Position numbers and translations under genes: made by a program. Below the pieces are notes generated by a model that had not been told where the DNA came from, did no database searches, and saw only the letters and a program-made list of their open reading frames with translations. Below are positions 40,462 to 63,365 of a stretch of 64,000 nt of DNA, piece by piece (position 1 is the stretch's first letter; every line of letters starts with the position of its first letter). The stretch is from a virus. The stretch lies in the IMG/VR virus record IMGVR_UViG_3300028815_000061, positions 1 through 64,000 of that record; one strand, written 5' to 3'.

Positions 40462-40653
40462 TTAACCTCCTATGAACTTCTTTTCATTATCAGTAATGAG
40501 AATCGCGATGACTTGTTCCCCCGTATTTACTGGATCGTTCGCACCTCTTAACTTGGCACGCACGGTCGCTCGGAATCCGGGGCTGAAGAGAAACAGTAGC
40601 GCTCCGATTGCTAGGTAAAATGGAAATTTCACTATATCACGGATAAGCGTCAT
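40462..40653 (-). CDS. Small single-span membrane protein, 63 aa
   Basis: ATGA overlap with the repeat-fibre gene. One hydrophobic stretch (KFPFYLAIGALLFLFSPGF) then basic residues and a soluble tail. It sits among virion genes; function unknown. Confidence 0.68.
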   Translation of the reverse strand: MTLIRDIVKFPFYLAIGALLFLFSPGFRATVRAKLRGANDPVNTGEQVIAILITDNEKKFIGG

Positions 40654-47744: not shown

Positions 47745-48190
47745 GTCAGTAAGAAGATCCCGGCCGTGGCCCACTCAATAGCGTAGTTGCCCCCAGTTGT
47801 AGCAGTCGAGCCAATCTCCCAGTAGGCCATGAGCGGATCGGCCGGACTGCTCGGGGTGTTATCGTACATGATACAGTGACTAGGCGTAGCTGGAGACAAT
47901 GTTCCCAATGCAGCCCAGACGACATCCTCTGCATCGAACACTCCACGATCATTCGTATTGTCCTGTACGGTCGACTTTCCTGTTAATGATTGCCCACCGG
48001 CCGTGTAGCCACTGCCAGTGCTATACTCACTAGCAGATACGTGTGAGTACAAAGTGTGGGTATCAATATTGGGTGTATAACTGCTTACAAGAATTAACTT
48101 TACGTCGTTACCACCGCTATCAATATCGTGAACCCCATCCATGAGGTTCTTTTTGAAGCAGTTGTATGCAACGCCATCACCTTCGGCCAT
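47741..48190 (-). CDS. Conserved phage virion-type protein, 149 aa
   Basis: Strong AAGGAG site. The sequence has a pattern I have often seen in phage structural proteins: YNCFKKNLMDGVHDID, YTAGGQSLTG, DNTNDRGVFDAEDVVWAALG, YWEIGSTATTGGNYAIEWATAGI. Likely a small decoration or fibre-base protein; exact role unknown. Confidence 0.72.
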   Translation of the reverse strand: MAEGDGVAYNCFKKNLMDGVHDIDSGGNDVKLILVSSYTPNIDTHTLYSHVSASEYSTGSGYTAGGQSLTGKSTVQDNTNDRGVFDAEDVVWAALGTLSPATPSHCIMYDNTPSSPADPLMAYWEIGSTATTGGNYAIEWATAGIFLLT

Positions 48191-48193
48191 AGC

Positions 48194-48529
48194 CTACTCC
48201 TTTCCTGGTGCCCTAGAAAAGATCCGAATTGGCTTCATCTTCACCACAACATCCTTATCGGTCGGAACTATTGCGGGCGGTCGCCATGCAGCCACTTCGT
48301 CCAAGCCCATGTTTCGCCTGGCTACCTCTTCTTCCACATACCTTTTGCCTTCAGACCAGTGCGCTCGCCTTTCGTCAACACGCTCCTGGGGATAATTACC
48401 CTCTTTTTCTATCTGGTCTATTTGGGCCAGGCTAAACCTAATGTAAAAGTACTTTGAACATAATTGCTGTTCCGTGAGTTCTTCTAGCTCTTTTCTAAAG
48501 GCCTCGAAACTAAAATGTCTATTACTCAT
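48194..48529 (-). CDS. Hypothetical protein, 111 aa
   Basis: ATGA overlap with the gene before. Helical and charged (SFEAFRKELEELTEQQLCSKY), ending in a basic strand (VVVKMKPIRIFSRAPGKE). No recognised family. Confidence 0.72.
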   Translation of the reverse strand: MSNRHFSFEAFRKELEELTEQQLCSKYFYIRFSLAQIDQIEKEGNYPQERVDERRAHWSEGKRYVEEEVARRNMGLDEVAAWRPPAIVPTDKDVVVKMKPIRIFSRAPGKE

Positions 48530-48876
48530 CTACTCATCACCTTTTGAAAAAACGAGATGGTCGCGGCTAATGCGAATGGCATGGCCAAGATAATCAATAC
48601 GTCCCTGTACTCCATTGGAACAGCAAACCAAATAATGGTCGCTGCCAAGCCATACCAGATTGACATGCAGTAAGGGCAGTTGTGCATCGAGGCAAGTTCC
48701 CGCTTCCAGACCGGCTTGGCCACAACAGCACGTCGACTGCGCTCATCGTACCTGATACCAATTGCGTACCTGAGCTTGTGAAGTAGATCGAATGGACCTG
48801 CCCACTTATCGTCGTAGATATAATTGACAATGCGCCATGTTGCCAGGCCAATCACGACAAAATCAAAGAAATCCAT
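48526..48876 (-). CDS. DUF1360-like membrane protein, 116 aa
   Basis: ATG at 48876 chosen over TTG at 48891 because GGAG lies five bases before it. The pattern DFVVIGLATWRIVNYIYDDKWAGPFDLLHKLR plus NCPYCMSIWYGLAATIIW is that of DUF1360 proteins found widely in phages. Two membrane segments. It lies immediately behind an attenuator-type terminator. Function of the family is unknown. Confidence 0.82.
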   Translation of the reverse strand: MDFFDFVVIGLATWRIVNYIYDDKWAGPFDLLHKLRYAIGIRYDERSRRAVVAKPVWKRELASMHNCPYCMSIWYGLAATIIWFAVPMEYRDVLIILAMPFALAATISFFQKVMSR

Positions 48877-48889
48877 AACGTCTCCAAAC

Positions 48890-48917
48890 AAAAAGGGCCT
48901 AGAAAAATCTAGGCCCT
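48890..48917 (-). terminator. Attenuator-type terminator (module A)
   Basis: On the minus strand: AGGGCCTAG, loop ATTTTT, CTAGGCCCT, then TTTTG. Nine-base-pair perfect stem. It lies only about 20 bases downstream of its own promoter's start and 14 bases before the DUF1360-like gene. Confidence 0.88.
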
Positions 48918-48926
48918 GTCAGAGCG

Positions 48927-48940
48927 ATGCGTGCACGCAT
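48927..48940 (-). promoter_or_regulatory. Perfect 14-bp palindrome at promoter A start site
   Basis: ATGCGTGCACGCAT is fully self-complementary and covers the predicted start of transcription of promoter A, a good position for a repressor. Confidence 0.6.
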
Positions 48941-48968
48941 TATAGCATGGCTAAATGCGCGGATTCAA
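48939..48968 (-). promoter_or_regulatory. Extended -10 promoter (module A)
   Basis: Minus strand TTGAAT, 18-base spacer ending in TGC, then consensus TATAAT. The TGn directly before the -10 makes it an extended -10. Predicted start about 48932, so the transcript meets the terminator after roughly 15-40 bases. Confidence 0.75.
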
Positions 48969-48972
48969 AAAA

Positions 48973-49590
48973 TCACAAATCGTATTTGCTCTTCATGCTA
49001 TACAAGCTACGAACAGTAGCCGGACCAACGCCGCTAATACGCAGCAAGTCAGCCTGACTCGTGTTGTCGAGATCGGATAATTTATTTATCCCGTTGTCCT
49101 TTAGTAGCTTGATATGCCCGGCATTTACCTTGGTCTTTGACCAATCCAATTCCTCAATCGGCCACTCCATTTTATTATCCGGCATTTTCTTGAGCACATG
49201 TACGACACTTTCGCCGTGCTTGACTTCATCTCGATCAATTGCCTCTGGCGGAGGAGGTGGTGGGGGTGCCGGTACCGCGCCAGGTGGCTTGCCTTGTCTT
49301 TCCTCTATGATCCTGGCAACACGTTGCTGCCTATCAGCGCGATCGCTACGCATCGCGACAACTCGTTTCGGCTGCACTATCGGGTTGACTGGTCGAAAGA
49401 GATCGGGCCTTACTCGCATATCGGCCTCGTACACCTCGAATCTGTCACCACCCTTTCTGTAGCCGTAAGATTGCTTTGTCGCAGAACCGGTAACCATATG
49501 CTTGCCAGCGTTACGGGTGTTGTAAATGATTAAAACCTTTTTGCCTGTTGCTTGCTCCACTGTGTACTCCTGTTGACAATTACATGGCAT
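48973..49590 (-). CDS. Protein with proline linker and C-terminal helix-hairpin-helix, 205 aa
   Basis: ATG at 49590 with AAGAGG upstream. An N-terminal beta domain (KKVLIIYNTRNAGKHMV, SYGYRKGGDRFEVYEADMRVRPD), a proline run (PAPPPPPPP) and a C-terminal HhH domain (NGINKLSDLDNTSQADLLRISGVGPATV) similar to the protein at 37652. The first domain resembles small barrel proteins from head-tail junctions. Overlaps the glycosyltransferase end by 11 bases. Confidence 0.7.
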   Translation of the reverse strand: MPCNCQQEYTVEQATGKKVLIIYNTRNAGKHMVTGSATKQSYGYRKGGDRFEVYEADMRVRPDLFRPVNPIVQPKRVVAMRSDRADRQQRVARIIEERQGKPPGAVPAPPPPPPPEAIDRDEVKHGESVVHVLKKMPDNKMEWPIEELDWSKTKVNAGHIKLLKDNGINKLSDLDNTSQADLLRISGVGPATVRSLYSMKSKYDL

Positions 49591-52129
49591 AGGATATAGC
49601 CTCTTGCTCGGGTTGATGCACAGCATCGTACTCGTTTTGAAGATAGGCCATTAACTCTGCCTCATGTCCTACGCTTTTATCTCTCCTGGCCCCGTCAGTA
49701 AAGCTATATACCCATAATGGCATATCAACCCTGTGAAACGGGTATCCCTGCCATGCCAGGCGATACAGGTATAAGCAATCCTCCCATGTCTTTATCTCCT
49801 CATCAAATCCGCCAATAGCCTCATGCCACATCTTCGGTAGCAGGATATTAACTCCTGACCACACATATGGCCGATCCCCATCTGGTCTGAGCATGGCACG
49901 TTCCCGGTCGAATGGACGGAAACTATAATCCACGATAACGTGATCGCCTTCTTCCTTGACAACGTGTCCTTGCAGACGAGGTAGCATATTCTTACTCATC
50001 TTTGAGTAGTACTTGCTGTACACGATTGACTTTGTTTGCTTGCTTATTTCTGGATTCACGTAGGTTAAGAACTCTGGTCCATAACAGTCGTCTGCATCAA
50101 GGAATGTGACAAAATCGGCGCTGGCCATGCGCACACCAATGTTTCTTGCGTGGCCCGGTCCACCAGGCACTAGCTCGCCAGTCCAGTAGCTATGTGCGTA
50201 TGCTTCAGCGTACCGCACAAATGGAAAGGCGTTTTGGTAATAGTCCATGATATCGTAATCAAAGTTGTAATCCCAAACAACAATCGCCTCCCAATTCCTG
50301 TACTCCTGTGCTTCAATGCTATGCAAGGCAGTTGCAAGGACAATCTCGTGACCCTTGCCGACTGGGATAATGATAGAGACCTTTGGTTCGTACGAGCGTA
50401 CTGGATGCGACAGGTTCTTCGGTGTAGCAACAGCAGCAAACGGGAATCTGTAATCCCGCGTATATGGTTGCCACGCTCGCCAATTAACTTCGGTGAAATC
50501 GCTTGCACCAGATACATGGCCTAATCCATGAGTATGTACCCACAAGTTATTTGGCGTTGGCTTCACCATCTGTGGTTTCCATCCATGCGCCAGCAATCTC
50601 AGATACAGGTTTGCATCTTCAGTGCCAGCACCTCTCGGAGCGTAGCGAGCCATATACCCACCCGCCTCTATCAAGGCCTTGCGCCTGAACATCACGCACG
50701 CGGGAAACTGGTTGGCCAAACCCTCGATAAATTGCTTGTTAACATCCATTGTTGGCCATGGCTTATGGGCTCGTAAACCCATTTCTTTTGCCAGACCAGG
50801 TGGTGCAAGATGCTCGCCGCCCTTCTGGTAATCAATAACCTCGCTGCCAGAATAAGAAAAGCCAATCGTCTTATCACCCACGAGTGGTTTAAGGCAATCC
50901 TTCACAAAGTCAGGCTTGATCTGGTCGTCTCCATCAAGAACAACGACAAAGTTGCAATCCGTACGGTATATTCCGGCATTCCTGGCAAGAGCAACGTTTT
51001 GTAGGTCAACCCGCAAATATTCAATGCTCGATATTGTCTTGGTGTACTTCTCGACAACGTCTTTCGTATTGTCGGTTGAGGAGTCATCAACAACGATAAT
51101 GTGGTCGGGCATCCTTGTTTGAGCTAGTACACTGTCGATAGCCTTTCCCACTACGTCGCCATAATTATGCGATGTTATAACCACGGCCACCGTGTCCAAT
51201 TTGCCAGCCTGGTACAATTTATCCTTGTAGACCACTTCATCGTACACGTTATGAATGATCGTGGCCAGCATGCTGATGCTGTATTTCCAGTCAAGTTCCT
51301 TCTTGGCCACCCACCTGGCGTTTTGCCCAAGGATGCTGCCATGCTTCAGGCAATACTTTATACCCTGTATCGCATCGTTTAGGTTGTGATCTCTGTAGAT
51401 ATAACCCGTTCGCCCGTGTTCCACGAAATCCTTAACCGCTCCAGCACTCGTGCTACATACAGGAACACCAGAGGCCAGGGCCTCAGCCGCAGCTATGCCC
51501 CAGGTCTCGCGATCGGGCATAAAGATCACACCCGCTTCCTGGATATGGCGCTTCATCTCTTCAAATGGAACCGTGCCTCCATACGTAACGACGTTTGGCG
51601 GCGAATCCCTAGTCGCAAATGTAGTATAAAACGTCGTGTGTGGCATGGCCCTGGCAACATCGTTAATCTGTCCAGGATCTAGGCCATCAGATGTACGATT
51701 CTTTGTGTATAGCACATAATCGCCACGCCTGTAATTGTGCTCCCACTCATTTGGGTTTATGCCATGCCCGACCACGTGCACATGCTTGTGTAAGTCGCGA
51801 CGGTAAACATCGGCAACCCATCGCGACGGCGCGATTATAGTGTGAGCATTCACTGCAGCTTTAGCAAGATTCGCATTAACCCCATAAGCGTACTTGCCAA
51901 GTTTAATTTCCTCTGTCCACAGCAAGCCATGTGTGACATGTATATCTGCATCCAAGTTGGACACTATATGCCCTATCGAAAGATCGGCCGGTTCACCTGG
52001 AGCGACTAGGTCAATCCCATATTTTGGCAAATGTTTAGACCAATTGATGACTACCTGAGCAATGCCAGAGTGCTCCTTCCCTCGCATATCATCAGCGTGT
52101 GGTGTCATTGATACTTTGACTCGACTCAT
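49580..52129 (-). CDS. Three-domain glycosyltransferase (GT4 + GT2 + GT2), 849 aa
   Basis: Residues about 1-300 are GT4-like (GHGINPNEW; the EX7E-type DRETWGIAAAEALASGVPV). About 312-545 are a GT2 domain (VAVVITSHNYGD, VVDDSSTDNT, VVLDGDDQIKPDF). About 600-830 are a second GT2 domain (VSIIIPVGKGHE, FLDADDCYGPEF, ETWED-like EEIKTWEDCLYL). Fused enzymes of this kind build glycans with several different linkages. Probable role: virion or cell-surface glycan synthesis. GGAG precedes the ATG. Confidence 0.88.
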   Translation of the reverse strand: MSRVKVSMTPHADDMRGKEHSGIAQVVINWSKHLPKYGIDLVAPGEPADLSIGHIVSNLDADIHVTHGLLWTEEIKLGKYAYGVNANLAKAAVNAHTIIAPSRWVADVYRRDLHKHVHVVGHGINPNEWEHNYRRGDYVLYTKNRTSDGLDPGQINDVARAMPHTTFYTTFATRDSPPNVVTYGGTVPFEEMKRHIQEAGVIFMPDRETWGIAAAEALASGVPVCSTSAGAVKDFVEHGRTGYIYRDHNLNDAIQGIKYCLKHGSILGQNARWVAKKELDWKYSISMLATIIHNVYDEVVYKDKLYQAGKLDTVAVVITSHNYGDVVGKAIDSVLAQTRMPDHIIVVDDSSTDNTKDVVEKYTKTISSIEYLRVDLQNVALARNAGIYRTDCNFVVVLDGDDQIKPDFVKDCLKPLVGDKTIGFSYSGSEVIDYQKGGEHLAPPGLAKEMGLRAHKPWPTMDVNKQFIEGLANQFPACVMFRRKALIEAGGYMARYAPRGAGTEDANLYLRLLAHGWKPQMVKPTPNNLWVHTHGLGHVSGASDFTEVNWRAWQPYTRDYRFPFAAVATPKNLSHPVRSYEPKVSIIIPVGKGHEIVLATALHSIEAQEYRNWEAIVVWDYNFDYDIMDYYQNAFPFVRYAEAYAHSYWTGELVPGGPGHARNIGVRMASADFVTFLDADDCYGPEFLTYVNPEISKQTKSIVYSKYYSKMSKNMLPRLQGHVVKEEGDHVIVDYSFRPFDRERAMLRPDGDRPYVWSGVNILLPKMWHEAIGGFDEEIKTWEDCLYLYRLAWQGYPFHRVDMPLWVYSFTDGARRDKSVGHEAELMAYLQNEYDAVHQPEQEAISYAM

Positions 52130-52275
52130 TTATTTCTCCAACGTTTATTACGTTTTGCTGGTTTCCACCTGGGAGGCCATCTACCCTCCTCCTTGGCCTT
52201 CATAATGCGCCATGCCCACCAAGCGTCCAGTTCCAACATTTCATTCTTGGTAAATCTAGGTCGACCAAATGACAC
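52126..52275 (-). CDS. Very small Trp-rich basic protein, 49 aa
   Basis: GTG start with AGAGGTGG six bases upstream, stop overlapping the glycosyltransferase ATG (ATGA). Starts VSFGRPRFTKNEMLELDAWW; carries six Trp and many Lys/Arg in the rest. Coding is supported by the tight coupling on both sides. Could be a DNA- or membrane-binding peptide. Function unknown. Confidence 0.7.
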   Translation of the reverse strand: MSFGRPRFTKNEMLELDAWWAWRIMKAKEEGRWPPRWKPAKRNKRWRNK

Positions 52276-52277
52276 GA

Positions 52278-52445
52278 TTAACCACCTCTTACCTTGGCCA
52301 GCCTGCTATAAAAGTCCTGGTCAAGGTCCTGTATCTTGTCAGCTAATTTCTTCTCAGTCCACTTCTCGCCAGCGCACTTCTCGTAGATGTCGCTTTTCTT
52401 TTGAGCGTACCAGTCGTAGATGTCGTCTAATTGCTGGCTTTTCAT
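52278..52445 (-). CDS. Small helical protein, 55 aa
   Basis: ATG overlaps the upstream stop (ATGA). Helical and charged throughout (SQQLDDIYDWYAQKKSDIYE). It lies two bases from the 49-residue gene. Function unknown. Confidence 0.68.
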   Translation of the reverse strand: MKSQQLDDIYDWYAQKKSDIYEKCAGEKWTEKKLADKIQDLDQDFYSRLAKVRGG

Positions 52446-53005
52446 ATAGCACCTAGTAGTTTGAGTGCGCACAAAACAATTGCCGGACCAACTATCATCA
52501 ACCAGATAATTCGCCTTCTTTGCTTCGGCATGACCACGACCTTCCCAGCGTTGTCGATTGCACTATCGACAAAGTCAAGATATGCCTCAAATATAGGCAT
52601 GAACGGATCCCCGATCTGATAGGCGTAACTGATATTAGGCTCAGGTCGATCTGGCACCTTGCTTTCTGGGTACATGTAAGACGTGTTCAATCTATCAATT
52701 GCTTTTTCTTGGCCATATAATCTCAGCCTTTGTCTAAGTGCGTCCCGGCTCCTGGCCTGCAGCCTGTTATGCTCCTGAACAAGCATCGCGGCCTCGCTTG
52801 GATCTATGCTTCCATCACGCAGGCACGCCTGAACAAGCCTATCGAATCTCTCGGAAGCGCTTTTCGCTAGGTCTACAAATCTCCTGTCTCGCTCATCCAG
52901 AGAGTCCACAAGGTAACGACTCAGCGAAGGTATTGGCTTCTCCTCCTCAAGAACAACCTCGGAAACATCAACACGACGCCTACTATTCTTCTTCATCAAC
53001 CTCAT
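52442..53005 (-). CDS. C-tail-anchored helical protein, 187 aa
   Basis: A long soluble helical part (SLDERDRRFVDLAKSASERF, DALRQRLRLYGQEKAIDRL) ends in a single C-terminal membrane segment (IIWLMIVGPAIVLCALKLLG). Start is uncertain: ATG at 53005 or the ATG three codons later. Its membrane tail fits the cluster of membrane proteins here. Confidence 0.7.
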   Translation of the reverse strand: MRLMKKNSRRRVDVSEVVLEEEKPIPSLSRYLVDSLDERDRRFVDLAKSASERFDRLVQACLRDGSIDPSEAAMLVQEHNRLQARSRDALRQRLRLYGQEKAIDRLNTSYMYPESKVPDRPEPNISYAYQIGDPFMPIFEAYLDFVDSAIDNAGKVVVMPKQRRRIIWLMIVGPAIVLCALKLLGAI

Positions 53006-53423
53006 TACCTGAGTCGAATATTGAGGCCCCAGATATCCTCGCCTGGATCATCGCCGAACTGGTCATAATGTCCCTTAACTCATCCTCGGTATACTTGCTC
53101 ATATCAACATCTTCCTTGAGCAAGAAGATGCGATCCTTGTGAATATAGCCAACACTCGCCATTGCTTCCTCGTCAAGAACCTTGAGATCACCCCAGTTCT
53201 CGACACCAACAACAATGGTTCTGACATTAAACCTGGCAAGGATTTGGTGAGCAGCCGTATTTATGAACCTACTAAACTCCTCTTCGGGCATGTTCTTTGG
53301 TTTCCTGTATGCCACAAGTGCCCTGTCAGGCAATGACAGCGTGCGACTTTTAACCTTTGGAAACCTGCCCTCTGGTGTTTTTGGTACCGGTTGAATACCA
53401 AGTGACGGCCTAGGATCGCCCAT
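52983..53423 (-). CDS. Hypothetical protein, 146 aa
   Basis: GGAGGA eight bases upstream of the ATG. N-terminal Pro-rich stretch, then a mixed alpha/beta domain (ARFNVRTIVVGVENWGDLKVL). Acidic C-terminus (FDSGNEVDEEE). No family recognised. Overlaps the next upstream gene by 14 bases. Confidence 0.72.
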   Translation of the reverse strand: MGDPRPSLGIQPVPKTPEGRFPKVKSRTLSLPDRALVAYRKPKNMPEEEFSRFINTAAHQILARFNVRTIVVGVENWGDLKVLDEEAMASVGYIHKDRIFLLKEDVDMSKYTEDELRDIMTSSAMIQARISGASIFDSGNEVDEEE

Positions 53424-53982
53424 GCGTCATCCTCCGGTTGCCACTCGTGCGTTGAATCTGGTTACGCTGTATGCCAAGCTGACTGATAACATGTGGCCAG
53501 ATAGCCAGAAGAACGCCAACAGTAGCACTTAGAAATAGCTCTGAACCAATCGTAATAAATGTGAGCGTGTAAGCTGCGCCGATCGCGATTGCTGGCGTAA
53601 ACAAATGTGGCCCACTTCCATCCAACGGAAACATCTGTCGACCAGAGCGGTCCTGAACATCGCTTACAAAGTCGATTGTGAAGAACAAGGCAACGATTGC
53701 TAGTGCCCAGTAGTTTTTCTTTGTATCCATCATGAACAGGTACATGAAAAACACTTGGGCGACTTGCGGTATAAAGCCAATCACCCAGTAGGTAATGGGC
53801 CAGTTCCCGAACTCGACGCCAAATGCAATTTCTAGGGCCTCGAATCCATCACGAGACGACTTAGCATCCTCCATGAATAGGATTATGCCAGACAAGAAAA
53901 GAAATAGGGCAAGTCCAAACACATACATAATGTACGGGCTGTCTTGCCACTTTACCCTAATTTGCTCGAATACGTTCGTCAT
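53410..53982 (-). CDS. Polytopic membrane protein, 190 aa
   Basis: ATG behind GGAGTG. About four membrane segments (YIMYVFGLALFLFLSGIILF, ITYWVIGFIPQVAQVFFMYLF, YWALAIVALFFTIDFVS, AIAIGAAYTLTFITIGSELFL). It may anchor or transport something for the neighbouring glycan genes, but no transporter family is recognised. Confidence 0.75.
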   Translation of the reverse strand: MTNVFEQIRVKWQDSPYIMYVFGLALFLFLSGIILFMEDAKSSRDGFEALEIAFGVEFGNWPITYWVIGFIPQVAQVFFMYLFMMDTKKNYWALAIVALFFTIDFVSDVQDRSGRQMFPLDGSGPHLFTPAIAIGAAYTLTFITIGSELFLSATVGVLLAIWPHVISQLGIQRNQIQRTSGNRRMTHGRS

Positions 53983-54583
53983 ATTTCACTCCAGTGGTTT
54001 GAGTTAGAAAAGCCTTTAAGCGCTCCGTCACAGCGTACTGGCTATTTCCGATGTCATCCACCAGGTTATGTGAAACCAGGTAATCAATGATTATATCCCC
54101 GCTTGTCGAAAATCTATCCGGTATGACACCATAAGATTCTAATTGACGCTTGGATATCTTGTCCATGCCCTCCTCAATGGCGTGCGCTAGAGAAATTAGC
54201 TTCGATAGCACACTAACTTCTTCTGAAGCAGAAGGCGTCATGGGTTTGCCATCAGCGGTTACGCCAATAGGTGCGTAAGCGTTGCCCATGTCTGCGGGCA
54301 CCTCGACGATAGCTCCGCGATCTTTTATGATGCGCTTCATTTCGTCGACCGGATGTTCCTCGCCTGTCATCCAGTACGGCCGTTTCATGCGGCCGGACTC
54401 ATATAGATACTGTTCGGCAACGTAGACGACAACATAAGTAATCGCCCAAATAAAGACGCCAAGAACAATAGCACGGCCAAATTCAAGCCATGTCAAATCC
54501 CCATCAAGAAGAGAGGCAGCAAGCGCACTGGCCCATGCTGCAGCGCCTATCCTGAATGCTATTGGTGGTGCGTGCTCGGTCAT
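53957..54583 (-). CDS. Membrane protein with soluble C-terminus, 208 aa
   Basis: ATG at 54583 (AAGGG upstream) starts one base from the end of the GT2 gene. Two membrane segments near the N-terminus (FRIGAAAWASALAASLL, FGRAIVLGVFIWAITYVVVYV), then a helical cytosolic part with a SEEVSVLSKLISLAHAIEEG segment. Function unknown. Confidence 0.72.
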   Translation of the reverse strand: MTEHAPPIAFRIGAAAWASALAASLLDGDLTWLEFGRAIVLGVFIWAITYVVVYVAEQYLYESGRMKRPYWMTGEEHPVDEMKRIIKDRGAIVEVPADMGNAYAPIGVTADGKPMTPSASEEVSVLSKLISLAHAIEEGMDKISKRQLESYGVIPDRFSTSGDIIIDYLVSHNLVDDIGNSQYAVTERLKAFLTQTTGVKYDERIRAN

Positions 54584-54584
54584 T

Positions 54585-55313
54585 TTATAACCCTTTTTTC
54601 TGCCAGCTATCTCCCACGTGCATCCATTGTCCAAGATTAAGGCCAAACATAGGAATCACAACCCATGGCATAATGTTCCACTCTGGTTGTTCCCTTCTCA
54701 TGGCCTTGTAATTCGCACACCATCTTACTTCTGTTTGGCCTAATTTCACACTCTGGTCATACATGCCGTAAACCCAGTGAAACCTCATGTGCTTGATATG
54801 TGGCCTATTTGAGGCCAGGTATAGCTCAGGCCCTTCCACGTCCAGGTACCAGTATGGTCCATAGTTAGCAGCCTTGAATTTGTAGTACTTGCCCAGATTG
54901 TACGCATCTTTTTCCTCGCCCATAAATAGGCGTATCCAACCTATGTTGAGTTCCTCTGTAAACAAGTCTCGTGCATAATCGGTGATGTCGAGATGGTCGA
55001 TAAGGTGATGATCGTCGTCGAGTTGCATAACCAACGGTGTTTCAACCTTACTGAGCAACATATTGAGATTAGCGCCAAGACCCCTACCAGGACCTTTATA
55101 GATGCGGATCTCGCCACGATCGCTTAACAGATATTTTGGGTCAAAATCATCTCCGTCATTCCCAATGAATACGTGAACATCTGGTTCTCTATTACCTTGC
55201 TCGTCGAAGTACACGAGATTACTAAGCAGTAAATCAACTGTTTCGACAAGAATTTCAGGCCGATTGTACGTTGGTATGATAATTGTCAGATCCCTGCTTG
55301 TATTGCTTTGCAC
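54585..55313 (-). CDS. GT2-family glycosyltransferase, 242 aa
   Basis: GTG at 55313 is chosen: AAAGGAGG lies at ideal distance, whereas the longer frame overlaps the upstream gene by 188 bases. GT-A motifs: LTIIIPTYNRPEILVETVDLLL at the N-terminus, VHVFIGNDGDD, then the metal-binding MQLDDDHHLID. Transfers sugars from nucleotide sugars; acceptor unknown. In a row with sulfotransferase-like and methyltransferase genes. Confidence 0.83.
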   Translation of the reverse strand: MQSNTSRDLTIIIPTYNRPEILVETVDLLLSNLVYFDEQGNREPDVHVFIGNDGDDFDPKYLLSDRGEIRIYKGPGRGLGANLNMLLSKVETPLVMQLDDDHHLIDHLDITDYARDLFTEELNIGWIRLFMGEEKDAYNLGKYYKFKAANYGPYWYLDVEGPELYLASNRPHIKHMRFHWVYGMYDQSVKLGQTEVRWCANYKAMRREQPEWNIMPWVVIPMFGLNLGQWMHVGDSWQKKGL

Positions 55314-55827
55314 CAAAATGCCTCCTTTTGTCCTTTGGCACCCATAATGGATGCTCTGATAAAGACTCGTACTCAACCTCTTTCCAGTACGACAAGTAGT
55401 CACGAACGTATGTTTCCCAGTAGTCGTACTTAGCAGTAGCAACCCACACAGCAGCTTCCGTCAGTATATGGGAATCAGGCAGCAAATTAACATAGTACTG
55501 TATCTCGCGCTCTGCCCAAATGTTCCATCCAATCCTACTTTGACTGGCGATGATATCCTCTACATCACGCTTCATTAAGACAACGCAGCAATTCGGATCG
55601 CTAAAACGCAGCGCATCTTTTAAGATCCCAGGACCTTGCAAGATACAGGGTTGGCGCTCATCTGCTAAATCCCTGGCTTTTTCGCCGTCCCATACCTGCC
55701 ATAACCCCTCATCAAGATGCGTGTATCCATCAAGATCGTGCTCTATCATCCTAGAGCAGATGACAGTGCCCGAACGTTGCGGGCCAGTAACTAGGATAAT
55801 TGGCCAGGAAGATAAGTACTCAAACAC
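55255..55827 (-). CDS. Sulfotransferase-like P-loop protein, 190 aa
   Basis: GTG behind AGAGG. The N-terminal IILVTGPQRSGTVICSRMI is the 5'-phosphosulfate-binding loop of sulfotransferases, and CCVVLMKRDVEDIIASQSRIGW is the 3'-phosphate-binding Arg/Ser region. Shorter than most family members (190 against about 250-300), so it may be minimal or cut short. It could sulfate a glycan; a related kinase-type P-loop enzyme is the alternative. Confidence 0.75.
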   Translation of the reverse strand: MFEYLSSWPIILVTGPQRSGTVICSRMIEHDLDGYTHLDEGLWQVWDGEKARDLADERQPCILQGPGILKDALRFSDPNCCVVLMKRDVEDIIASQSRIGWNIWAEREIQYYVNLLPDSHILTEAAVWVATAKYDYWETYVRDYLSYWKEVEYESLSEHPLWVPKDKRRHFGAKQYKQGSDNYHTNVQSA

Positions 55828-56374
55828 AGCTCAACCTCTTGAAAATCCGCATAGTTCCCACAGATCCTTGTTCTCTCCAGCAATTGCTGAAACTGGTATA
55901 CCACTCTGATACAGCTTGGTTAACACCAGGAACCAGGTCATGCACACGAGGCTCGCCAGCACTATTGTATGGACGGTGAAAATCGTAACAATCATGGAAG
56001 ATAACATAGCCTCCAATGTCCACCAGGTGCGTGTAAGACGTATCGGCGATCACACCCTGGTACGTGTGATCTCCGTCGATAAACAAAACGTCTACAACCG
56101 GGTAAGCCCTTCCAAATAGCTCGAACAATTTTGAACTATCGCCAGTTATGAACTCAACACCTAGGCTGTCCGGTGCCTTTGAATTGTCCAGGTCCATCCC
56201 ACAGATAATGCACGTAGGGTTTCCTTCTCTGAAGCAAACGAGTGATGCGCCATGCTCTGTACCTATATTCAAAATAACTCCTAAATTCCCCGCTGACTTA
56301 GCAATATGATGAAGGAACTCACGCTCCTCCGGCCTCAGAAATCCCTTGGCCGTCCTGTAATTCAATCCCACCAT
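55820..56374 (-). CDS. SAM-dependent methyltransferase (Methyltransf_24-like), 184 aa
   Basis: Class I fold: motif I GVILNIGTEHGASLV, then CGMDLDNS, VDVLFIDGDHTYQGVIAD and GGYVIFHDCYD, typical of CmcI/sugar-O-methyltransferase relatives. ATG at 56374 follows GGAGG. It overlaps the regulator gene upstream and the sulfotransferase-like gene downstream. Likely methylates a sugar. Confidence 0.83.
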   Translation of the reverse strand: MVGLNYRTAKGFLRPEEREFLHHIAKSAGNLGVILNIGTEHGASLVCFREGNPTCIICGMDLDNSKAPDSLGVEFITGDSSKLFELFGRAYPVVDVLFIDGDHTYQGVIADTSYTHLVDIGGYVIFHDCYDFHRPYNSAGEPRVHDLVPGVNQAVSEWYTSFSNCWREQGSVGTMRIFKRLSCV

Positions 56375-56618
56375 CCTTCCTCCACTTGCTTTCAAGTTTT
56401 ATTAGCTCATCACGACTTATCTTTAGCGCAACAATCCCACCCACATTCGGATCAAAACGCGGATCAATCACAAAGTCGGCGGAGACATGCACTGTATTTA
56501 GGTACTCCTCCAAGGCATAGATAGTCAATAGGGCCATCGAGATGCCTCGCTCCTCTGCCTCTGCCTTAACGCGCGCGTGAAGTTCCTCGGGGATTCTTGC
56601 TAGTAAATTCTTTGTCAC
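56319..56618 (-). CDS. Ribbon-helix-helix regulator, Arc/CopG type, 99 aa
   Basis: Starting at GTG 56618: TKNLLARIPEELHARVKAEAEERGISM then a helix (ALLTIYALEEYL), which is the RHH fold. A second half (VSADFVIDPRFDPNVGGIVALKISRDEL) may be a ligand or oligomer part. The predicted start of transcription coincides with the GTG, and there is no Shine-Dalgarno, so the mRNA seems leaderless. It probably binds the palindromic sites in its own promoter. Confidence 0.8.
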   Translation of the reverse strand: MTKNLLARIPEELHARVKAEAEERGISMALLTIYALEEYLNTVHVSADFVIDPRFDPNVGGIVALKISRDELIKLESKWRKDGGIELQDGQGISEAGGA

Positions 56619-56624
56619 GCCAAC

Positions 56625-56653
56625 ATGATAACACATTGCAATCTGGCTTGCAA
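56625..56653 (-). promoter_or_regulatory. Leftward half of a symmetric divergent promoter
   Basis: Minus strand: TTGCAA (56648-56653), 17-base spacer, TATCAT (56625-56630). Predicted start at 56618, the first base of the RHH gene's GTG. The -35 is shared with the rightward promoter. Confidence 0.78.
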
Positions 56654-56663
56654 TATGCAATCA
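56632..56663. promoter_or_regulatory. Clustered TTGCA operator motifs
   Basis: The region holds ATTGCAAT, then TTGCAATATGCAA (palindromic on its TTGCA/TGCAA arms). These lie over the shared -35 and left spacer, and would suit a cooperative RHH dimer. Confidence 0.5.
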
Positions 56664-56676
56664 AAAGTGTTATAGT
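56648..56676 (+). promoter_or_regulatory. Rightward half of a symmetric divergent promoter
   Basis: Plus strand: the same TTGCAA (56648-56653), 17-base spacer, TATAGT (56671-56676). Predicted start near 56683, giving a leader of about 126 bases before the 78-residue gene. Confidence 0.78.
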
Positions 56677-56763
56677 ACTTTCAGGTCCCTGTGACCTCAT
56701 GACTCACACACACGGGGCAGTCGTCCCCAAACGCTCTGCCTCGTGCACTTGCGCCCAGGCCCC

Positions 56764-56784
56764 CGGCCCGTATCCGGGGGCCTT
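56764..56784 (+). promoter_or_regulatory. Strong hairpin in the leader of the 78-residue gene
   Basis: GGCCCCCGG pairs perfectly with CCGGGGGCC over nine bases, loop CCCGTAT, at about 56758-56782. It lies 25 bases before the ATG. The tail TTAGCATATAAAG is not U-rich, so a control or stability element is likelier than a terminator. Further upstream AGGTC/GACCT and GGGG/CCCC can also pair. Confidence 0.55.
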
Positions 56785-56808
56785 AGCATATAAAGTCAGG
56801 TGACACCA

Positions 56809-57045
56809 ATGATAATAGAACAATTGACGGTCGAGATAATACCTATTAAGGATGGGCCAAGCCTAGATCCAAACTATCTGAAGATCAGGGTGGGGACTCA
56901 TGCCAGCGGAATGAGGTTTTACTACGAGGATTACGTAAAGCCTAGCAGCTTCGTAAGTGAATTTGACGTCATGCTAGAGCGCGCAGCCAAGGAAATCAAA
57001 AAGATGATCCGCGAGTACAAGGGAAAAGAAAAAGACTCCCCGTAG
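56809..57045 (+). CDS. Small rightward protein within the late region, 78 aa
   Basis: ATG at 56809 behind AGGTG; a GTG nine bases earlier is in frame but sits on that site. Sequence: beta-rich first half (QLTVEIIPIKDGP, YLKIRVGTHASGMRFYYED) then a basic helical tail (ERAAKEIKKMIREYKGK). Runs against the surrounding late genes and is driven by the divergent promoter. Could be the antagonist of the RHH regulator. Family not recognised. Confidence 0.75.
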   Translation: MIIEQLTVEIIPIKDGPSLDPNYLKIRVGTHASGMRFYYEDYVKPSSFVSEFDVMLERAAKEIKKMIREYKGKEKDSP

Positions 57046-57055
57046 GGAGCCTTTC
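57022..57055. terminator. Bidirectional terminator after the capsid gene
   Basis: GACTCCC and GGGAGCC form a stem around CGTA (one mismatch). Plus strand continues TTTCT; minus strand continues TTTTTCTTTTC. It serves both the 78-residue gene (its stop is in the stem) and the capsid gene end at 57076. Confidence 0.82.
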
Positions 57056-57075
57056 TCGGAAACATTGCGTGACTC

Positions 57076-58032
57076 TTATAGCCAGGGTGCGTTCTGCACA
57101 GGAACTGCAGTCGTCCTTTCGGACACACCACCATCGACCCAGTAGTCACTCGCAGGATCAGGATCGCGGAGCGGTATATTGCGTGAATACTTAATGTCCT
57201 GGATTTTTCCAGCCAAGTGCGGCGTGCGAAGAACAACGCGCGGATCGGTCTCTGCTCGCAGCTTGAAGCAAGTATACACAGTTTTCCAACTCCACAAGAA
57301 CCGGCCAGCATCCGTATACCACGTAGCCATGCCGGGTACCAGGTTAGATTGAGGAACACCCAGTTTATGATCCAGATACTCCCAATAGAGCACTGGCAAG
57401 TTGCCAACAATGGACAATGGCAGGAAGTAAACGCTAGAAGCGAATTCGTTAACTGCCAATCCAGTGCCGGACTGATTGTTCTCTTCGACGATACCTGTGT
57501 CCAACACAACGTTGTACCTCTTTCCATTCAGGTCGAGGTAAAGGCCAGCGCGCATAGAATCGCGATCGCGCACGTTTTCACGCGCATCAAGGATGACACG
57601 ATGTTCGCTACCGGCAAGTGTTGCGTAGTCAGGCTGCGTGTTGTACTGAATCGGCCACATGGACGATATAGCACGCCACGCCATCGGACGCATAACAATC
57701 ACATGAGAAACTGGGTCTACGCCGGTATCCATGGCCAGGTTATCCAAGTAGTCTGCGACTTCTTCCATCGCTCCTACAAGGTCTGCCCCACCATCTACCG
57801 CCTGATAACCAAAGTCCCAAATGGTGCTGTCGGCCGACGGCATCGGAGCGTTATTCTCAGCATCCGTGTAGCCTGTAGCAACCTGACTATCAATACCAGG
57901 GAATTCGACATAGCCTCTACCGGCCGTGTCGTTAGCACCGGATCCGTCGCCAGCCCACAGGAGTTTGGCGAGCTTGCGCTCGAACCGAACACCCATGGTA
58001 ATCATTTCGGCCTTTGTCACCATGTCCAGCAA
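57076..58032 (-). CDS. Major capsid protein, C-terminal frame (about 318 aa)
   Basis: HK97-fold-type sequence: KAEMITMGVRFERKLAKLLW, YVEFPGIDSQVATGY, VGAMEEVADYLDN (P-domain/spine-like helix), SHVIVMRPMAWRAISS, ending LRDPDPASDYWVDGG. By itself it has only a TTG/ATG with no ribosome site. Its N-terminus continues the 138-residue frame upstream after a one-base shift near 58030. The joined protein would be about 450-460 residues. Confidence 0.85.
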   Translation of the reverse strand: MLDMVTKAEMITMGVRFERKLAKLLWAGDGSGANDTAGRGYVEFPGIDSQVATGYTDAENNAPMPSADSTIWDFGYQAVDGGADLVGAMEEVADYLDNLAMDTGVDPVSHVIVMRPMAWRAISSMWPIQYNTQPDYATLAGSEHRVILDARENVRDRDSMRAGLYLDLNGKRYNVVLDTGIVEENNQSGTGLAVNEFASSVYFLPLSIVGNLPVLYWEYLDHKLGVPQSNLVPGMATWYTDAGRFLWSWKTVYTCFKLRAETDPRVVLRTPHLAGKIQDIKYSRNIPLRDPDPASDYWVDGGVSERTTAVPVQNAPWL

Positions 58033-58433
58033 CCCGCCCTACGTATATCTTGTGAACCACGGGCCACACGACCGAACCTGGCGGTCAACGTGCCCGATTT
58101 AATATACCCACTGGGAGCGTCATCGCAGGGGTATATTGGTTCTGAACCAACATCATCGGAGAAGCCTGTCAGCAATCCATACCAGGGGTTTGTGCTTTGA
58201 CTGGGGAATGCGGGTAGCAATTGGCCCAGGCCACGAGCACGTACGTGGGTGCTGATTAAGGCTTCATCCAATCCAGGTGTATTGAAGAGTCCACCCGGAC
58301 CATGAAGCAGTGTACCAGTGTGTGTTTGAAGTGACGCTTTTTCTTTCTGGTAGTAGTTGTAAAACTGCTTCAGAACTTCCATTGGATCGCGCTCGCCTTG
58401 CTCTGCGGCCAGCGCGGGGTTAGCAATATTCAT
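58017..58433 (-). CDS. Major capsid protein, N-terminal frame (138 aa)
   Basis: ATG with GGAG upstream. PMEVLKQFYNYYQKEKASLQ looks like the N-arm, then TLLHGPGGLFNTPGLDEALIS and SGTLTARFGRVARGSQDIRRAG, after which this frame ends at TGA in 15-16 bases. Reading GGGTTTG instead of GGGTTG at about 58032-58037 would join it to AGLLDMVTKAE. Either a base is missing in the sequence or ribosomes shift by -1. Confidence 0.85.
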   Translation of the reverse strand: MNIANPALAAEQGERDPMEVLKQFYNYYQKEKASLQTHTGTLLHGPGGLFNTPGLDEALISTHVRARGLGQLLPAFPSQSTNPWYGLLTGFSDDVGSEPIYPCDDAPSGYIKSGTLTARFGRVARGSQDIRRAGCWTW

Positions 58434-58456
58434 TATCTAATCTCCTACACTTAATA

Positions 58457-59911
58457 TTATTGGCCGTCTGCTGCACTACGGACACGAACCATTCCACGGG
58501 GGTTTGATTGCTGCCTAGTGATCATCTTCGAGATCATCGGGGCAACACCAGGTACTCGTACCTCTTCAGGCTCCTCGACCTTGGTCTTGTTATACAGCGC
58601 TCGATCGTCATTCCCGTGAATACGGGTCTTTTCTTTACCGATAACTGATCCAACCTCGGTCGCCAGCCAACCAGCCATGGAAGCGATGGGAGTTTCCGCA
58701 GCTTTGCGCGCGATCCGCTCCTCATCATTACTCTTCAGTTTCGCGATTTGAGCACGCTGATCGTCTAGTTGCTTTTGCAACTCCGCTAGTTGGGCATTGT
58801 TTGCTTCCTGGATCTCAGTAACCACTTGTTTCATGGCTACTGCCATCTCTTTGGCAAACTGCTTGAAATCAGTCGGTACCTGGAATTTGACGGGGTCCAT
58901 CGCCATACCGGTATCAACCTCTTCCTCGCCCTCTTCGGAGTCGGTTTCAGCTTCAGACTCATCAACGGCCTCATCTGCAGCGTCGGACTCGTCAACTTCA
59001 GTCTCTTCGGTTTCAACCTCTTCAGTTTCTACCTCTTCGGTTTCTACCTCTTCAACTTCAGTCTCTTCGACTTGGCTATTTGCCGTTGTTTGCTCGCTCA
59101 TAGCTTGCATCTCCTTTCTAGGAATTTCTGAATCCTCAGCGAATATTTCCAACTCACTTAGCAGTGCATCGAAACGTTCCACTGTCTCTTCACCAAATAC
59201 TTCAGTCATTCTTTGTGACTTGTGCTTAGGTATGTTCATGATTGCCTCTTTCATGGTAATTGAAAATGCAGTACCCCAGTTCGCGGCCTGGTCGAAAGGC
59301 AAGGCCGTGAATTCTGTACTGAGGTACTCGTCTATAATTCGTTCATTGTCTGCGTTTAGCTTCAGGAAACTGGTTGGCATACCATGAGACATACCATGAT
59401 CTATATCTGTTTCTGCTATAGCCTTAAAAACGCTGGAATAGAATTCGCCTTCTTTTTGCTGACCCGCAGCAACCAAGTAGCCACGATCGTCGTAACCAAC
59501 AAGGTACGAATATCCGATAGATATTGGCAAATGCCAGTACCACAAGTCAGGTGTTCCACGCTTACCAATCTCCTTAAACATTTGCCCGACCTTGCCAGGC
59601 AAATCGACAAGCCAAGAGTTAAGAACCATTGGCCCATACTCGCCACTGTCTATCATCTCGACAAAGCGTTTATGAGCCTTGGCCGACACCCATTCAAGAT
59701 GTTTGTCTATCCAATTATTAGAAACGATACCAAGCCAATGCCAGATCCCGTTTTTATCCTGCTTGACAGTAAAGCCCCGAATGCCTTTTTCTACATTTGC
59801 ATTGATAGCACGCATATGGGCCAGGGCCTCCTCGTGCGTGTCGTGGCACTCAATCACCTTTCCAGAAGGCTCAACCACACACTTACCAGAATCGTCTAGT
59901 TTTACAGGCAT
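58457..59911 (-). CDS. Prohead protease-scaffold fusion candidate, 484 aa
   Basis: Residues about 1-270 carry WYWHLPISIGYSYLVGYDD and a later GMSHGMPTSFLKLN, consistent with a prohead protease having a His/Ser catalytic pair. About 285-340 is a Glu-rich run (ETEVEEVETEEVETEEVET), then a coiled coil (ANNAQLAELQKQLDDQRAQIAKL) and a basic tail, as in scaffolds. ATG at 59911 lies eight bases after the terminator of module B without its own ribosome site. Followed by the capsid gene. Confidence 0.72.
   Translation of the reverse strand: MPVKLDDSGKCVVEPSGKVIECHDTHEEALAHMRAINANVEKGIRGFTVKQDKNGIWHWLGIVSNNWIDKHLEWVSAKAHKRFVEMIDSGEYGPMVLNSWLVDLPGKVGQMFKEIGKRGTPDLWYWHLPISIGYSYLVGYDDRGYLVAAGQQKEGEFYSSVFKAIAETDIDHGMSHGMPTSFLKLNADNERIIDEYLSTEFTALPFDQAANWGTAFSITMKEAIMNIPKHKSQRMTEVFGEETVERFDALLSELEIFAEDSEIPRKEMQAMSEQTTANSQVEETEVEEVETEEVETEEVETEETEVDESDAADEAVDESEAETDSEEGEEEVDTGMAMDPVKFQVPTDFKQFAKEMAVAMKQVVTEIQEANNAQLAELQKQLDDQRAQIAKLKSNDEERIARKAAETPIASMAGWLATEVGSVIGKEKTRIHGNDDRALYNKTKVEEPEEVRVPGVAPMISKMITRQQSNPRGMVRVRSAADGQ
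58982..59078 (-). repeat. Tandem 15-base repeats coding an acidic EEVET run
   Basis: The segment coding ETEVEEVETEEVETEEVETEE consists of near-identical 15-base units (plus-strand TTCTACCTCTTCGGT/ TTTCAACCTCTTCAG type). It lies in the scaffold linker and is prone to length change. Confidence 0.7.
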
Positions 59912-59918
59912 AATAAAC

Positions 59919-59950
59919 AAAAAAGGCCCAGCGACGATTGTCACTAGGCC
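59919..59950 (-). terminator. Attenuator-type terminator (module B)
   Basis: Minus strand: GGCCTAGTGAC, loop AATC, GTCGCTGGGCC (11 pairs including two G-U), then TTTTTT. It lies eight bases before the protease/scaffold ATG and about 18 bases after the predicted start of promoter B. Confidence 0.88.
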
Positions 59951-59974
59951 CTGTCAGAGCGTCTCTAGTTAAAA

Positions 59975-60004
59975 ACTATAGCACATCAAAAAGTCAGGCG
60001 TCAA
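59975..60004 (-). promoter_or_regulatory. Extended -10 promoter (module B)
   Basis: Minus strand TTGACG, 18-base spacer ending TGC, TATAGT. Same layout as promoter A: extended -10 and 18-base spacer. Predicted start about 59968. It overlaps the stop of the 119-residue gene and would serve the protease/scaffold and capsid genes if the terminator is bypassed. Confidence 0.75.
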
Positions 60005-60360
60005 CCCTCCTCATTCATGGCCATCAATGCCGCTGCAGTGGTAGAGGTAAATTTGTAGTCTGCCACACGCTTAGGACTAAGCATCAATAGATTATACTTT
60101 GCCCGCGTAGCCTCATCTTGCTCTATCTCGACAACATCTGGAGGTGCCCAAAGGACAGGCTTGTTACGGTGCACGGAAACACTCAGGGTTAATTTTGCAA
60201 ACCCGTTATTGTTCTTGCACGCGGCCTGGAGTGCCTTTATCACTTCTATCCATTCCCAGTGTACATCCTCTGGGACCGGATCATCATGCTTCAGGAATTG
60301 TCTCTTCTGATGATTCCTGGTCTGGCCGTTCTTCTTCTGTGGGTTCTTCGTCTGACTCAT
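60001..60360 (-). CDS. Hypothetical protein after the portal, 119 aa
   Basis: Begins inside the portal gene with a 77-base overlap; the only plausible start is ATG at 60360. N-terminus is extremely basic (KNPQKKNGQTRNHQKRQF) while the portal tail from the same DNA is acidic. The rest is beta-rich (FAKLTLSVSVHRNKPVLW). Small genes here often encode head-stability or head-tail proteins; none is recognised. Confidence 0.65.
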   Translation of the reverse strand: MSQTKNPQKKNGQTRNHQKRQFLKHDDPVPEDVHWEWIEVIKALQAACKNNNGFAKLTLSVSVHRNKPVLWAPPDVVEIEQDEATRAKYNLLMLSPKRVADYKFTSTTAAALMAMNEEG

Positions 60361-61900
60361 CTTCTTGTGCTTCCATTGTCATTTTTTGATATTGGCCTCT
60401 TAGCCACTCCAGCGCTGCCAGGGCCTCGCTTGCCCGGCGCTTCTTGGCCACACTATTACTCATCATTATCCTATAACATTCGGCCATCTGACCATGAATC
60501 GCCGCAATGACTGTAGCCGGATCATTTTGCTCGTACAGAAGGGGTTCTGGTATATCGCCGAATCTCAGTAATTTGGCAATCACCTTGTCGTCTGAGTAGA
60601 ACAATGTCGCTATTGGCGATCCATCCTCCAAGAAACCGTCAGCTAATTGCTGGCGTATAAACTCCTCTCTGGAGATTTCGTTATTCTCCATCATAATCCT
60701 ACGCTGCGCGGCCGCATCAATGATCTCGTATTCAGATGTGCGAGCTACTGAGCGCGATCTGATATCACTGATGTTAGCTTGCATCATTTCTTGCTCATCG
60801 TCTTGCTCGTAAAACACAGGCTTGATAAATGGTGGGCACAACTTAAATTCCATTTGCTCTTGCAAATCGGCAATGAAGTCGGCGGGCAAGCGCCCACGTG
60901 ATTGCATGTTGCTGATCTGATCGCTGGCACGGCTCCCGGAAACCGGCCAGATATCCTGGATTTTCAATCCCCAGGCATACGCAATCGCGTACATTGCCAT
61001 CAACGTGCCTGTCTCTTCGTCGAATGGATCGAAGTTATTCAAGTCATGTGGTGTAACGCCAACCGCCTGCCCGCCTATGTAAACATTCATGCCAAAGTGT
61101 TCGAGACCAAGATTATCTTGCAAGGTGTTTGCTGCCATGAAAGCGGAGATCATTTCCTGCGCAGTAATTCCGTCGCCAACGAATAGCTTTGTGCCCGGCC
61201 GTCTACCCATCTTCTCCAGCTTATAGAGAATCTGCCCGCTTAACACTTCACCAAGCAAATGGCTCCTGGACACGCTTGATAAGCCAACACCATTTCTACG
61301 AGTAAGTCCCATGGTCATCTGAGACATGTAAATAACACGGCTAAAATGCAGTTTGTAACGCTTTCCATCATCTGGATGTATGTACCCAACGGGGAATTCC
61401 AGGACCCCTGTCCTTCTGCAGCGCATGGATTCGAGATGCCTGACACCCCACGGCATTCCCATGATCGGGCCATCCTCTGGCCCCTCGCCCATTATCTCCA
61501 TAAATCCTCCATTATCTGTCACAAGATAATCTAGGATAAAACGCTTCATAGCCGTGCGAAGGCCCTCGCCACCTTCAGATAAACCACGCACCATCATCTC
61601 AAAGGTCTCTGCGCGATCTACTTGGGAGGTGACGTTTCTGTCTCGGGCGACAAATTGTAGGGGAATGTTAGCTAGTTTCGTAAGTGCGGTATAAGCCAGG
61701 CCAGACAAATGGTTTGACCCGATCATCATCTGGTAAAGGCGCTTGTCTCTCGACGGACTCCACCAAGGCGGTAAAGAGTCTCCTGTATCTACAAGAGCAA
61801 TCTCTATTGGATTGCCAACGTCATAAAGACGTCGGCCGTTTTTACTAAAGTATTTGCTCTGTACCTTTTCCAGATTGTCCAAATATACTGCTGTAGTCAT
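60284..61900 (-). CDS. Portal protein, 538 aa
   Basis: Directly after the terminase gene, with the usual portal features: an N-terminal region, a conserved central part (LDYLVTDNGGFMEIMG, LHFSRVIYMSQM, LSSVSRSHLLGEVLSG), a crown-like ISRE segment and an acidic C-tail (SDEEPTEEERPDQESSEE). AAGGA lies nine bases before the ATG. Forms the dodecamer ring through which DNA enters the head. Confidence 0.83.
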   Translation of the reverse strand: MTTAVYLDNLEKVQSKYFSKNGRRLYDVGNPIEIALVDTGDSLPPWWSPSRDKRLYQMMIGSNHLSGLAYTALTKLANIPLQFVARDRNVTSQVDRAETFEMMVRGLSEGGEGLRTAMKRFILDYLVTDNGGFMEIMGEGPEDGPIMGMPWGVRHLESMRCRRTGVLEFPVGYIHPDDGKRYKLHFSRVIYMSQMTMGLTRRNGVGLSSVSRSHLLGEVLSGQILYKLEKMGRRPGTKLFVGDGITAQEMISAFMAANTLQDNLGLEHFGMNVYIGGQAVGVTPHDLNNFDPFDEETGTLMAMYAIAYAWGLKIQDIWPVSGSRASDQISNMQSRGRLPADFIADLQEQMEFKLCPPFIKPVFYEQDDEQEMMQANISDIRSRSVARTSEYEIIDAAAQRRIMMENNEISREEFIRQQLADGFLEDGSPIATLFYSDDKVIAKLLRFGDIPEPLLYEQNDPATVIAAIHGQMAECYRIMMSNSVAKKRRASEALAALEWLRGQYQKMTMEAQEDESDEEPTEEERPDQESSEETIPEA

Positions 61901-63328: not shown

Positions 63329-63334
63329 TATAAT
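63329..63334 (+). promoter_or_regulatory. Extended -10 promoter before the 93-residue gene
   Basis: TGG TATAAT at 63326-63334 is a full extended -10; no good -35 is visible. Predicted start about 63341, inside the palindrome below. Confidence 0.55.
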
Positions 63335-63335
63335 G

Positions 63336-63354
63336 TGATTACACAGTGTAATCA
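63336..63354. promoter_or_regulatory. Operator-like 19-bp palindrome
   Basis: TGATTACACAGTGTAATCA: two perfect nine-base arms around one A, between the divergent terminase and 93-residue genes. It covers the predicted rightward start and would also block leftward initiation; leftward TTGATT with 18-base spacing to TATACC is a weak -35/-10 pair. Confidence 0.65.
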
Positions 63355-63365
63355 AAGGAGTCATA

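Follow-up and report, generated by a model that had tools for sequence, protein, structure and literature searches.

Two promoter-terminator modules sharing a conserved mark ahead of late genes in an uncultivated phage: candidates for antitermination control

Why would a phage place a terminator between a promoter and the late gene behind it, and do so twice with the same short sequence in between? This question arises from two loci in the window, i.e. the whole stretch of 64,000 nucleotides analysed here, which corresponds to bases 1–64000 of a 71,031-base IMG/VR virus record without end repeats. Genes point rightward up to ~17 kb; those between 17.1 kb and the right end point leftward and include the late genes. 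An earlier note on this DNA had described two minus-strand modules of promoter, shared element and terminator, and these could be read directly in the sequence just as described (Table 1). Copy 1 lies before the gene that opens the tail-fibre-side block, while copy 2 lies before a gene whose protein matched no named family.

Table 1. Positions of the module parts and of neighbouring genes in the window
Feature	Position	Strand	Basis or remark
Terminase large subunit (TerL)	61845–63326	leftward set	beside the portal-like gene
Portal-like protein	60284–61900	leftward set	position beside TerL and homology to the same-place gene in relatives
Small ORF upstream of copy 2	60001–60360	−	stop codon overlaps the −35, likewise in L135 and L377
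Copy 2 −35, TTGACG	59999–60004	−	overlaps the TGA stop of the upstream ORF 60001–60360
Copy 2 −10, TATAGT, extended (TGTGC just upstream), 18-nt spacer	59975–59980	−	read directly; sigma70 score
Copy 2 18-mer, CGCTCTGACAGGGCCTAG	59961–59944	−	read directly; same as copy 1
Copy 2 conserved element, CGCTCTGACAGGGC	59948–59961	−	same as copy 1; conserved in L135 and L377
Copy 2 intrinsic terminator, GGCCTAGTGAC-AATC-GTCGCTGGGCC + TTTTTTGTT	59916–59950	−	hairpin 59950–59925, U-tract 59924–59916
Copy 2 ATG	59911–59909	−	read directly
Gene behind copy 2, 484 aa, prohead-protease/scaffold-like	58457–59911	−	position only
Copy 1 −35, TTGAAT	48963–48968	−	read directly
Copy 1 −10, TATAAT, extended (TGC just upstream), 18-nt spacer	48939–48944	−	read directly; sigma70 score
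Copy 1 18-mer, CGCTCTGACAGGGCCTAG	48926–48909	−	read directly
Copy 1 conserved element, CGCTCTGACAGGGC	48913–48926	−	boxA-like 10-mer plus base of terminator stem; identical in copy 2
Copy 1 intrinsic terminator, GGGCCTAGA-TTTT-TCTAGGCCC + TTTTTGTTT	48886–48916	−	hairpin 48916–48895, U-tract 48894–48886
Copy 1 ATG	48876–48874	−	read directly
Gene behind copy 1, 116 aa, DUF1360	48526–48876	−	PHROG 781 / PF07098 match; start codon read from sequence

A position-specific sigma70 model, applied to every site on either strand of the 71-kb record, ranked the promoters of copy 1 and copy 2 first and second, with scores of 15.2 and 13.9. As the note had claimed, a strong terminator right before the gene was predicted behind each promoter, 16 or 7 nt 5′ of the ATG. 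An independent hairpin-plus-U-tract scan placed these terminators (−16.8 and −19.6 kcal/mol for copy 1 and copy 2, with fold z-scores of −3.75 and −5.1) among the strongest on the minus strand, exactly behind the two best promoters. In both modules the stop signal lies within ~45 bases of the promoter, and the predicted terminated transcripts measure ~45 nt (copy 1) and ~50 nt (copy 2). The terminator hairpin persisted in the somewhat longer RNAs that were folded. Because a terminator only 7–16 nt from the ATG leaves no room for a second promoter, the genes behind the modules can be transcribed only by read-through. Moreover, since both promoters begin right where translation of the upstream gene stops, no ribosomes would cover RNAs coming from upstream as they enter the element and the terminator.

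The 18-mer common to both modules occurred exactly twice in the window with up to 3 mismatches allowed, against 0.04 occurrences expected, and no exact copy was present in the remaining 7 kb of the record. Its identity in the two modules thus stands, but not its description as a unit apart from the hairpin, as its last 8 bases (GGGCCTAG) form the 5′ arm of the terminator stem.

No DNA similar to positions 47000–60500 was present in 50,697 deposited phage genomes, among which the best TerL identity was only ~22–29%. An assembly of Kouleothrix aurantiaca (Chloroflexota) holds a TerL relative with 41% identity, which hints at Chloroflexota as the host phylum.

The note had staked its proposal beforehand on the element being present upstream of late genes in relatives, and it was indeed found before the homologous gene in L135 and L377. 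In these two independent relatives, whose portal or protease proteins are 50–72% identical to those of the window, the module is located between the portal cluster and the prohead-protease-like gene. L135, found through a portal alignment (identities of 72% for portal, 63% for TerL and 55% for the protease-like protein), carries TTGACA-18-TATAGT, followed by TGCTCTGACAGGGC, a hairpin, TTTTTG and the ATG, at the same place. L377 was found by protein search, and the homologues of the 484-aa protein in both relatives show 50–55% identity. A covariance model trained only on both window copies and L135 matched directly upstream of the L377 protease-like gene with 47.8 bits (E = 2e-11). For module 1, only a near-identical contig turned up; there being no second relative, the case for its conservation is the other copy in the same phage.

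Only 25–40% of fourfold-degenerate codon sites are identical among these viruses, i.e. they are saturated. Across the four modules (two window copies, L135 and L377), GCTCTGACAGGGC is nevertheless identical at 13/13 positions, preceded by C or T, and CGCTCTGACAGGGC is matched at 13/14 positions in L135 and L377. The terminator stem was paired in all 32 of 32 cells, with 3 of its 8 pairs altered on both sides, and 1 of 500 shuffles equalled the number of cells paired; this count leans to the model, as the four-module alignment was fitted to the structure of the covariance model. A MAFFT alignment of three modules gave the same picture of compensatory change. In the four modules, the first four stem pairs are kept in sequence except for one G–U, while the remaining stem varies with compensation. 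The loops vary, and of the spacers only the extended −10 (TGTGC or TGC before TATA) is retained; no common −10-like hexamer was seen by eye in the four initially transcribed regions.

These data suggest that the 18-mer consists of a recognised 14-mer, YGCTCTGACAGGGC, and CTAG, four bases of replaceable stem. The real unit would then be YGCTCTGACA together with the GGGC base of the hairpin, the other bases of the 18-mer being ordinary stem. The proposal that the element rather than the hairpin is recognised is consequently upheld for the ten fixed bases outside the stem and the four fixed basal stem bases, but not in its dismissal of the hairpin, which is itself maintained by compensatory change.

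We next asked how far the arrangement extends. The pattern TATANT-N9-18-GCTCTGACAG had at least 121 sites in the IMG/VR viral contig sample, and among the matches listed only the module sites have a terminator within 80 nt downstream. Promoter-element matches in L014 and L015 were set aside as chance, there being no terminator behind the element. A covariance model search of whole contigs found no exact module in TerL relatives at 29–44% identity, so that the YGCTCTGACAGGGC version is limited to a close clade and only the layout is wider. Among the farther TerL relatives covering the region, L007, L016, L018, L019, L020 and L021 have a hairpin immediately 5′ of the ATG where the first gene beyond the portal cluster begins, followed by a T-run in all of these except L016. 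Promoter-like sites lie upstream of this hairpin in L007 (TTGACT-17-TATGAT), L020 (TTGACA-17-TATCAT) and L019 (TAGACA-17-TACACT). In L007 and L018 a promoter is followed by a hairpin terminator within 9–16 nt, and L017 has such an arrangement before TerL. L007 was also seen to hold two promoter-terminator modules, at 5794–5883 and 15498–15690 (G001:80298 and 70591, minus strand); in the one upstream of the packaging genes the hairpin starts 16 nt after the −10, and the other module lies further downstream, at the boundary after the portal cluster.

Promoter-terminator-ORF arrangements numbered 9 in 344 kb of the TerL group and 0 in 981 kb of other viral contigs. Counted per promoter, this is a modest excess (9/133 versus 0/79, P = 0.03); with the comparison confined to the 40 GC-matched controls, the figures were 9/133 versus 0/32 (P = 0.21). 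The YGCTCT core, fixed in advance from the window and L135, occurred within 120 nt of the hairpin in 3 of 6 leaders of farther relatives (0.38 expected, P = 0.005). A few other 6-mers were likewise common to 3 of the 6, and the recurrence is suggestive only.

This wider layout might in turn indicate plain attenuation without any regulator, in which the terminator ends the upstream operon, passes a fixed fraction of polymerases and thereby sets expression, the shared bases being an efficient start-and-stop arrangement. A compact genome in which the upstream ORF stops at the −35 would suit this explanation, as would a hairpin position that is kept in distant relatives lacking the element. However, it leaves unexplained why 13 bases, nine of them outside the stem, stayed fixed over saturated divergence, and why the element is identical in two modules with different promoters and loops. 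Moreover, the usual order is terminator then promoter, which is reversed here. We therefore regard unregulated attenuation as unlikely.

The best-supported reading is antitermination, and the modules are probably regulated promoter-proximal attenuators for late operons. An arrangement of this type, as raised in the earlier note, is supported by the terminator-ATG geometry and by the element upstream of the same late gene in relatives. In such a mechanism, host RNA polymerase with a sigma70-type factor would initiate at the strong extended −10 promoter, make a tiny RNA and stop at the intrinsic terminator. In the late phase of infection, a putative factor would recognise the 14-nt mark, roughly +6 to +24 of the transcript, and once it is bound polymerase would ignore the terminator. 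The capsid and protease genes behind copy 2 and the tail-side block behind copy 1 would be turned on together. This scheme presumes that promoter and terminator are active, that a factor of this kind exists and that it acts late.

How might the mark be read? In rRNA boxA the first base is a T. The C/T alternation at the first base of YGCTCTGACA is that between lambda boxA (C) and rRNA boxA (T), and CGCTCTGACA is identical to the lambda nutR boxA CGCTCTTACA at 9/10 positions (lambda read from NC_001416). Both likenesses favour a nut-like RNA signal read by NusB/S10. The mark also matches the GYTCT core of the gamma-proteobacterial boxA consensus GYTCTTTAANA (PMC5725501), but its departure from that consensus beyond GCTCT counts against this reading. 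So does the lack of a uniform GCTCTGACA or a convincing boxA of this form in Chloroflexota rRNA leaders, as seen in Kouleothrix and in ~20 genomes from its class, with the reservation that a Chloroflexota host is uncertain. As a pure boxA would not need GGGC, the fixed GGGC counts against a pure boxA. A further objection is that the distance from the mark to the U-tract is only ~20–25 nt, while lambda nut sites lie far from their terminators.

Within the attenuator model, recognition in the nascent RNA is the most likely mode, with slightly better than even chances: NusB/S10 and a putative phage protein would take the mark as a boxA-like (nut-like) signal. The main alternative, at slightly less than even chances, is that a Q/AlpA/GafZ-type protein recognises these bases at the DNA level, within the initially transcribed region. 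The most specific version of the model is put forward tentatively: a boxA-type RNA mark fused to the base of the terminator hairpin, 15–20 nt after the start, may give one ~45 nt RNA whose stop a phage factor would turn into go at both operons, in a group of uncultivated phages that may belong to Chloroflexota.

Known systems resemble the modules in different respects. Q-type late antitermination in the lambdoid phages lambda, 21 and 82 (PR′-tR′) likewise has a sigma70 late promoter, an intrinsic terminator directly downstream, late structural genes behind it and a tiny RNA when unregulated, the promoter, terminator and tiny RNA being predictions here. The QBE of that system lies between the −35 and −10 (PMC6606751), whereas the fixed element here is in the transcribed region, the spacers of the four modules having essentially only the extended −10 (TGTGC or TGC) in common; furthermore, there are two modules here and one there. 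By analogy, the closest known logic is that of AlpA of Pseudomonas aeruginosa, with two target promoters, an ABE and terminators upstream of alpB and PA0807 (PMC7969949). There one factor serves two operons, each with a promoter and then a terminator before the first gene, and here two modules have one common element. The ABE (PMC7969949) and the ZBE of GafZ from the Caulobacter GTA (PMC11150451) are located between the −35 and −10, where the present modules have no common element beyond the extended −10.

With lambda N/nut the modules have in common the 9/10 boxA match followed by a hairpin, and an RNA mark would also serve polymerases arriving from upstream. A lambda boxB has a conserved loop and stands apart from the terminator, whereas the only stable hairpin here is the terminator, with differing loops. 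The nut-like site proposed earlier thus has a partial likeness to boxA and no separate boxB. The put RNA of HK022 (PMC9378689) is similarly a promoter-proximal transcribed element potentially acting in cis, but the two stable stem-loops of a put-like site are missing from the transcript before the terminator, and this suggestion of the note fell away. The rRNA boxA/Nus-SuhB system offers the Y-GCTCT core and strong extended −10 promoters (TGTGCTATA also occurs at the Kouleothrix rrn promoter). It differs in working mainly against Rho and in sequence beyond GCTCT, and no boxC is known here. The rRNA operon promoter of Kouleothrix aurantiaca (L303) itself reads TTGACA-17 (ending TGTGC)-TATACT, with the same extended −10 as the phage modules.

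Among the PHROG/Pfam matches of the phage proteins scanned there was no N, Q or other antiterminator family. The Q families PF06530 and PF03589 had no match in the 71-kb record, which is possibly a fragment, and Q proteins are very diverse; no N family was among the matches of the scanned proteins, N proteins being short and poorly conserved. Directly upstream of module 1 lies a gene (48973–49626, minus strand) for a 217-aa protein with a C-terminal helix-hairpin-helix stretch and weak likeness to the RNA polymerase alpha C-terminal domain (PF03118, E = 0.005; HHH_5, E = 0.004), both below the cut-off. It is a possible transcription-related lead.

The transcripts themselves might also be the product: RNAs of 45–50 nt with a common 10-nt seed (YGCUCUGACA) and a U-tailed terminator would work in trans, either on messengers of the phage or its host or by sequestering a host factor such as NusB/S10. 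They resemble minimal small regulatory RNAs, and the seed was unpaired in centroid folds of copy 1 and L135, though only partly in copy 2 and L377. However, in three viruses the same late gene has the site fixed at its start codon, which speaks against the earlier idea that a pair of tiny RNAs is their purpose. In addition, seed-complementary sites in the window were no commoner than chance, the single near match (at 1751) had no extended pairing, and no Rfam family matched at its gathering score in 48800–60100. We consider this function very unlikely.

A DNA operator appears just as improbable. In that case a repressor or roadblock protein would bind the element in the initially transcribed region and hold the late promoters off, the terminator being incidental insulation. 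The position of the element, fixed just downstream of the start, would fit, and sequence alone cannot separate DNA from RNA recognition. Yet the element is non-palindromic and continuous with a terminator stem whose base pairs are kept, and a separate palindromic operator candidate exists elsewhere in the genome, near 63340. There, the promoter TATAATGTGATTACACAGTGTAATC (63329–63366, plus strand) before a 93-aa ORF (63366–63647) contains the palindrome GATTACAC-a-GTGTAATC, and a similar GTGATTACACTGTG is found at a minus-strand promoter near 66581 (in L005); the two sites are a candidate repressor-operator pair.

The antitermination reading would offer a rule, stated in sequence terms, for how late genes are controlled in a group of phages of which hardly any relative is annotated, namely a fixed 14-nt mark between promoter and terminator. 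If read-through is regulated, the mark would count as a very compact signal for antitermination and could lead to a new antiterminator protein. Such an arrangement also suggests that promoter-then-terminator late control, as in lambda Q, AlpA and GafZ, extends to phages far from the studied ones.

Some further features of the leftward region were observed. A strong terminator, GGCTCCCTACGGGGAGTC, lies 3′ of the likely capsid gene (57022–57056, minus strand); it matches the antisense RNA family RF00489 weakly and below threshold, probably by composition. Compared with the window, the near-identical contig IMGVR_UViG_3300001855_000006 carries ~108 additional bases at about 58044, within the likely capsid gene, and its ORF there is 489 aa versus 318 aa in the window, which reflects either an assembly gap or a real indel. 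Periodic repeats of 60 bp (20 aa) span 40740–43095 within a 1265-aa minus-strand ORF (40650–44447), and the adjacent ORFs of 469 and 480 aa (44923–47774, minus strand) are paralogues with 30% identity over nearly their full length.
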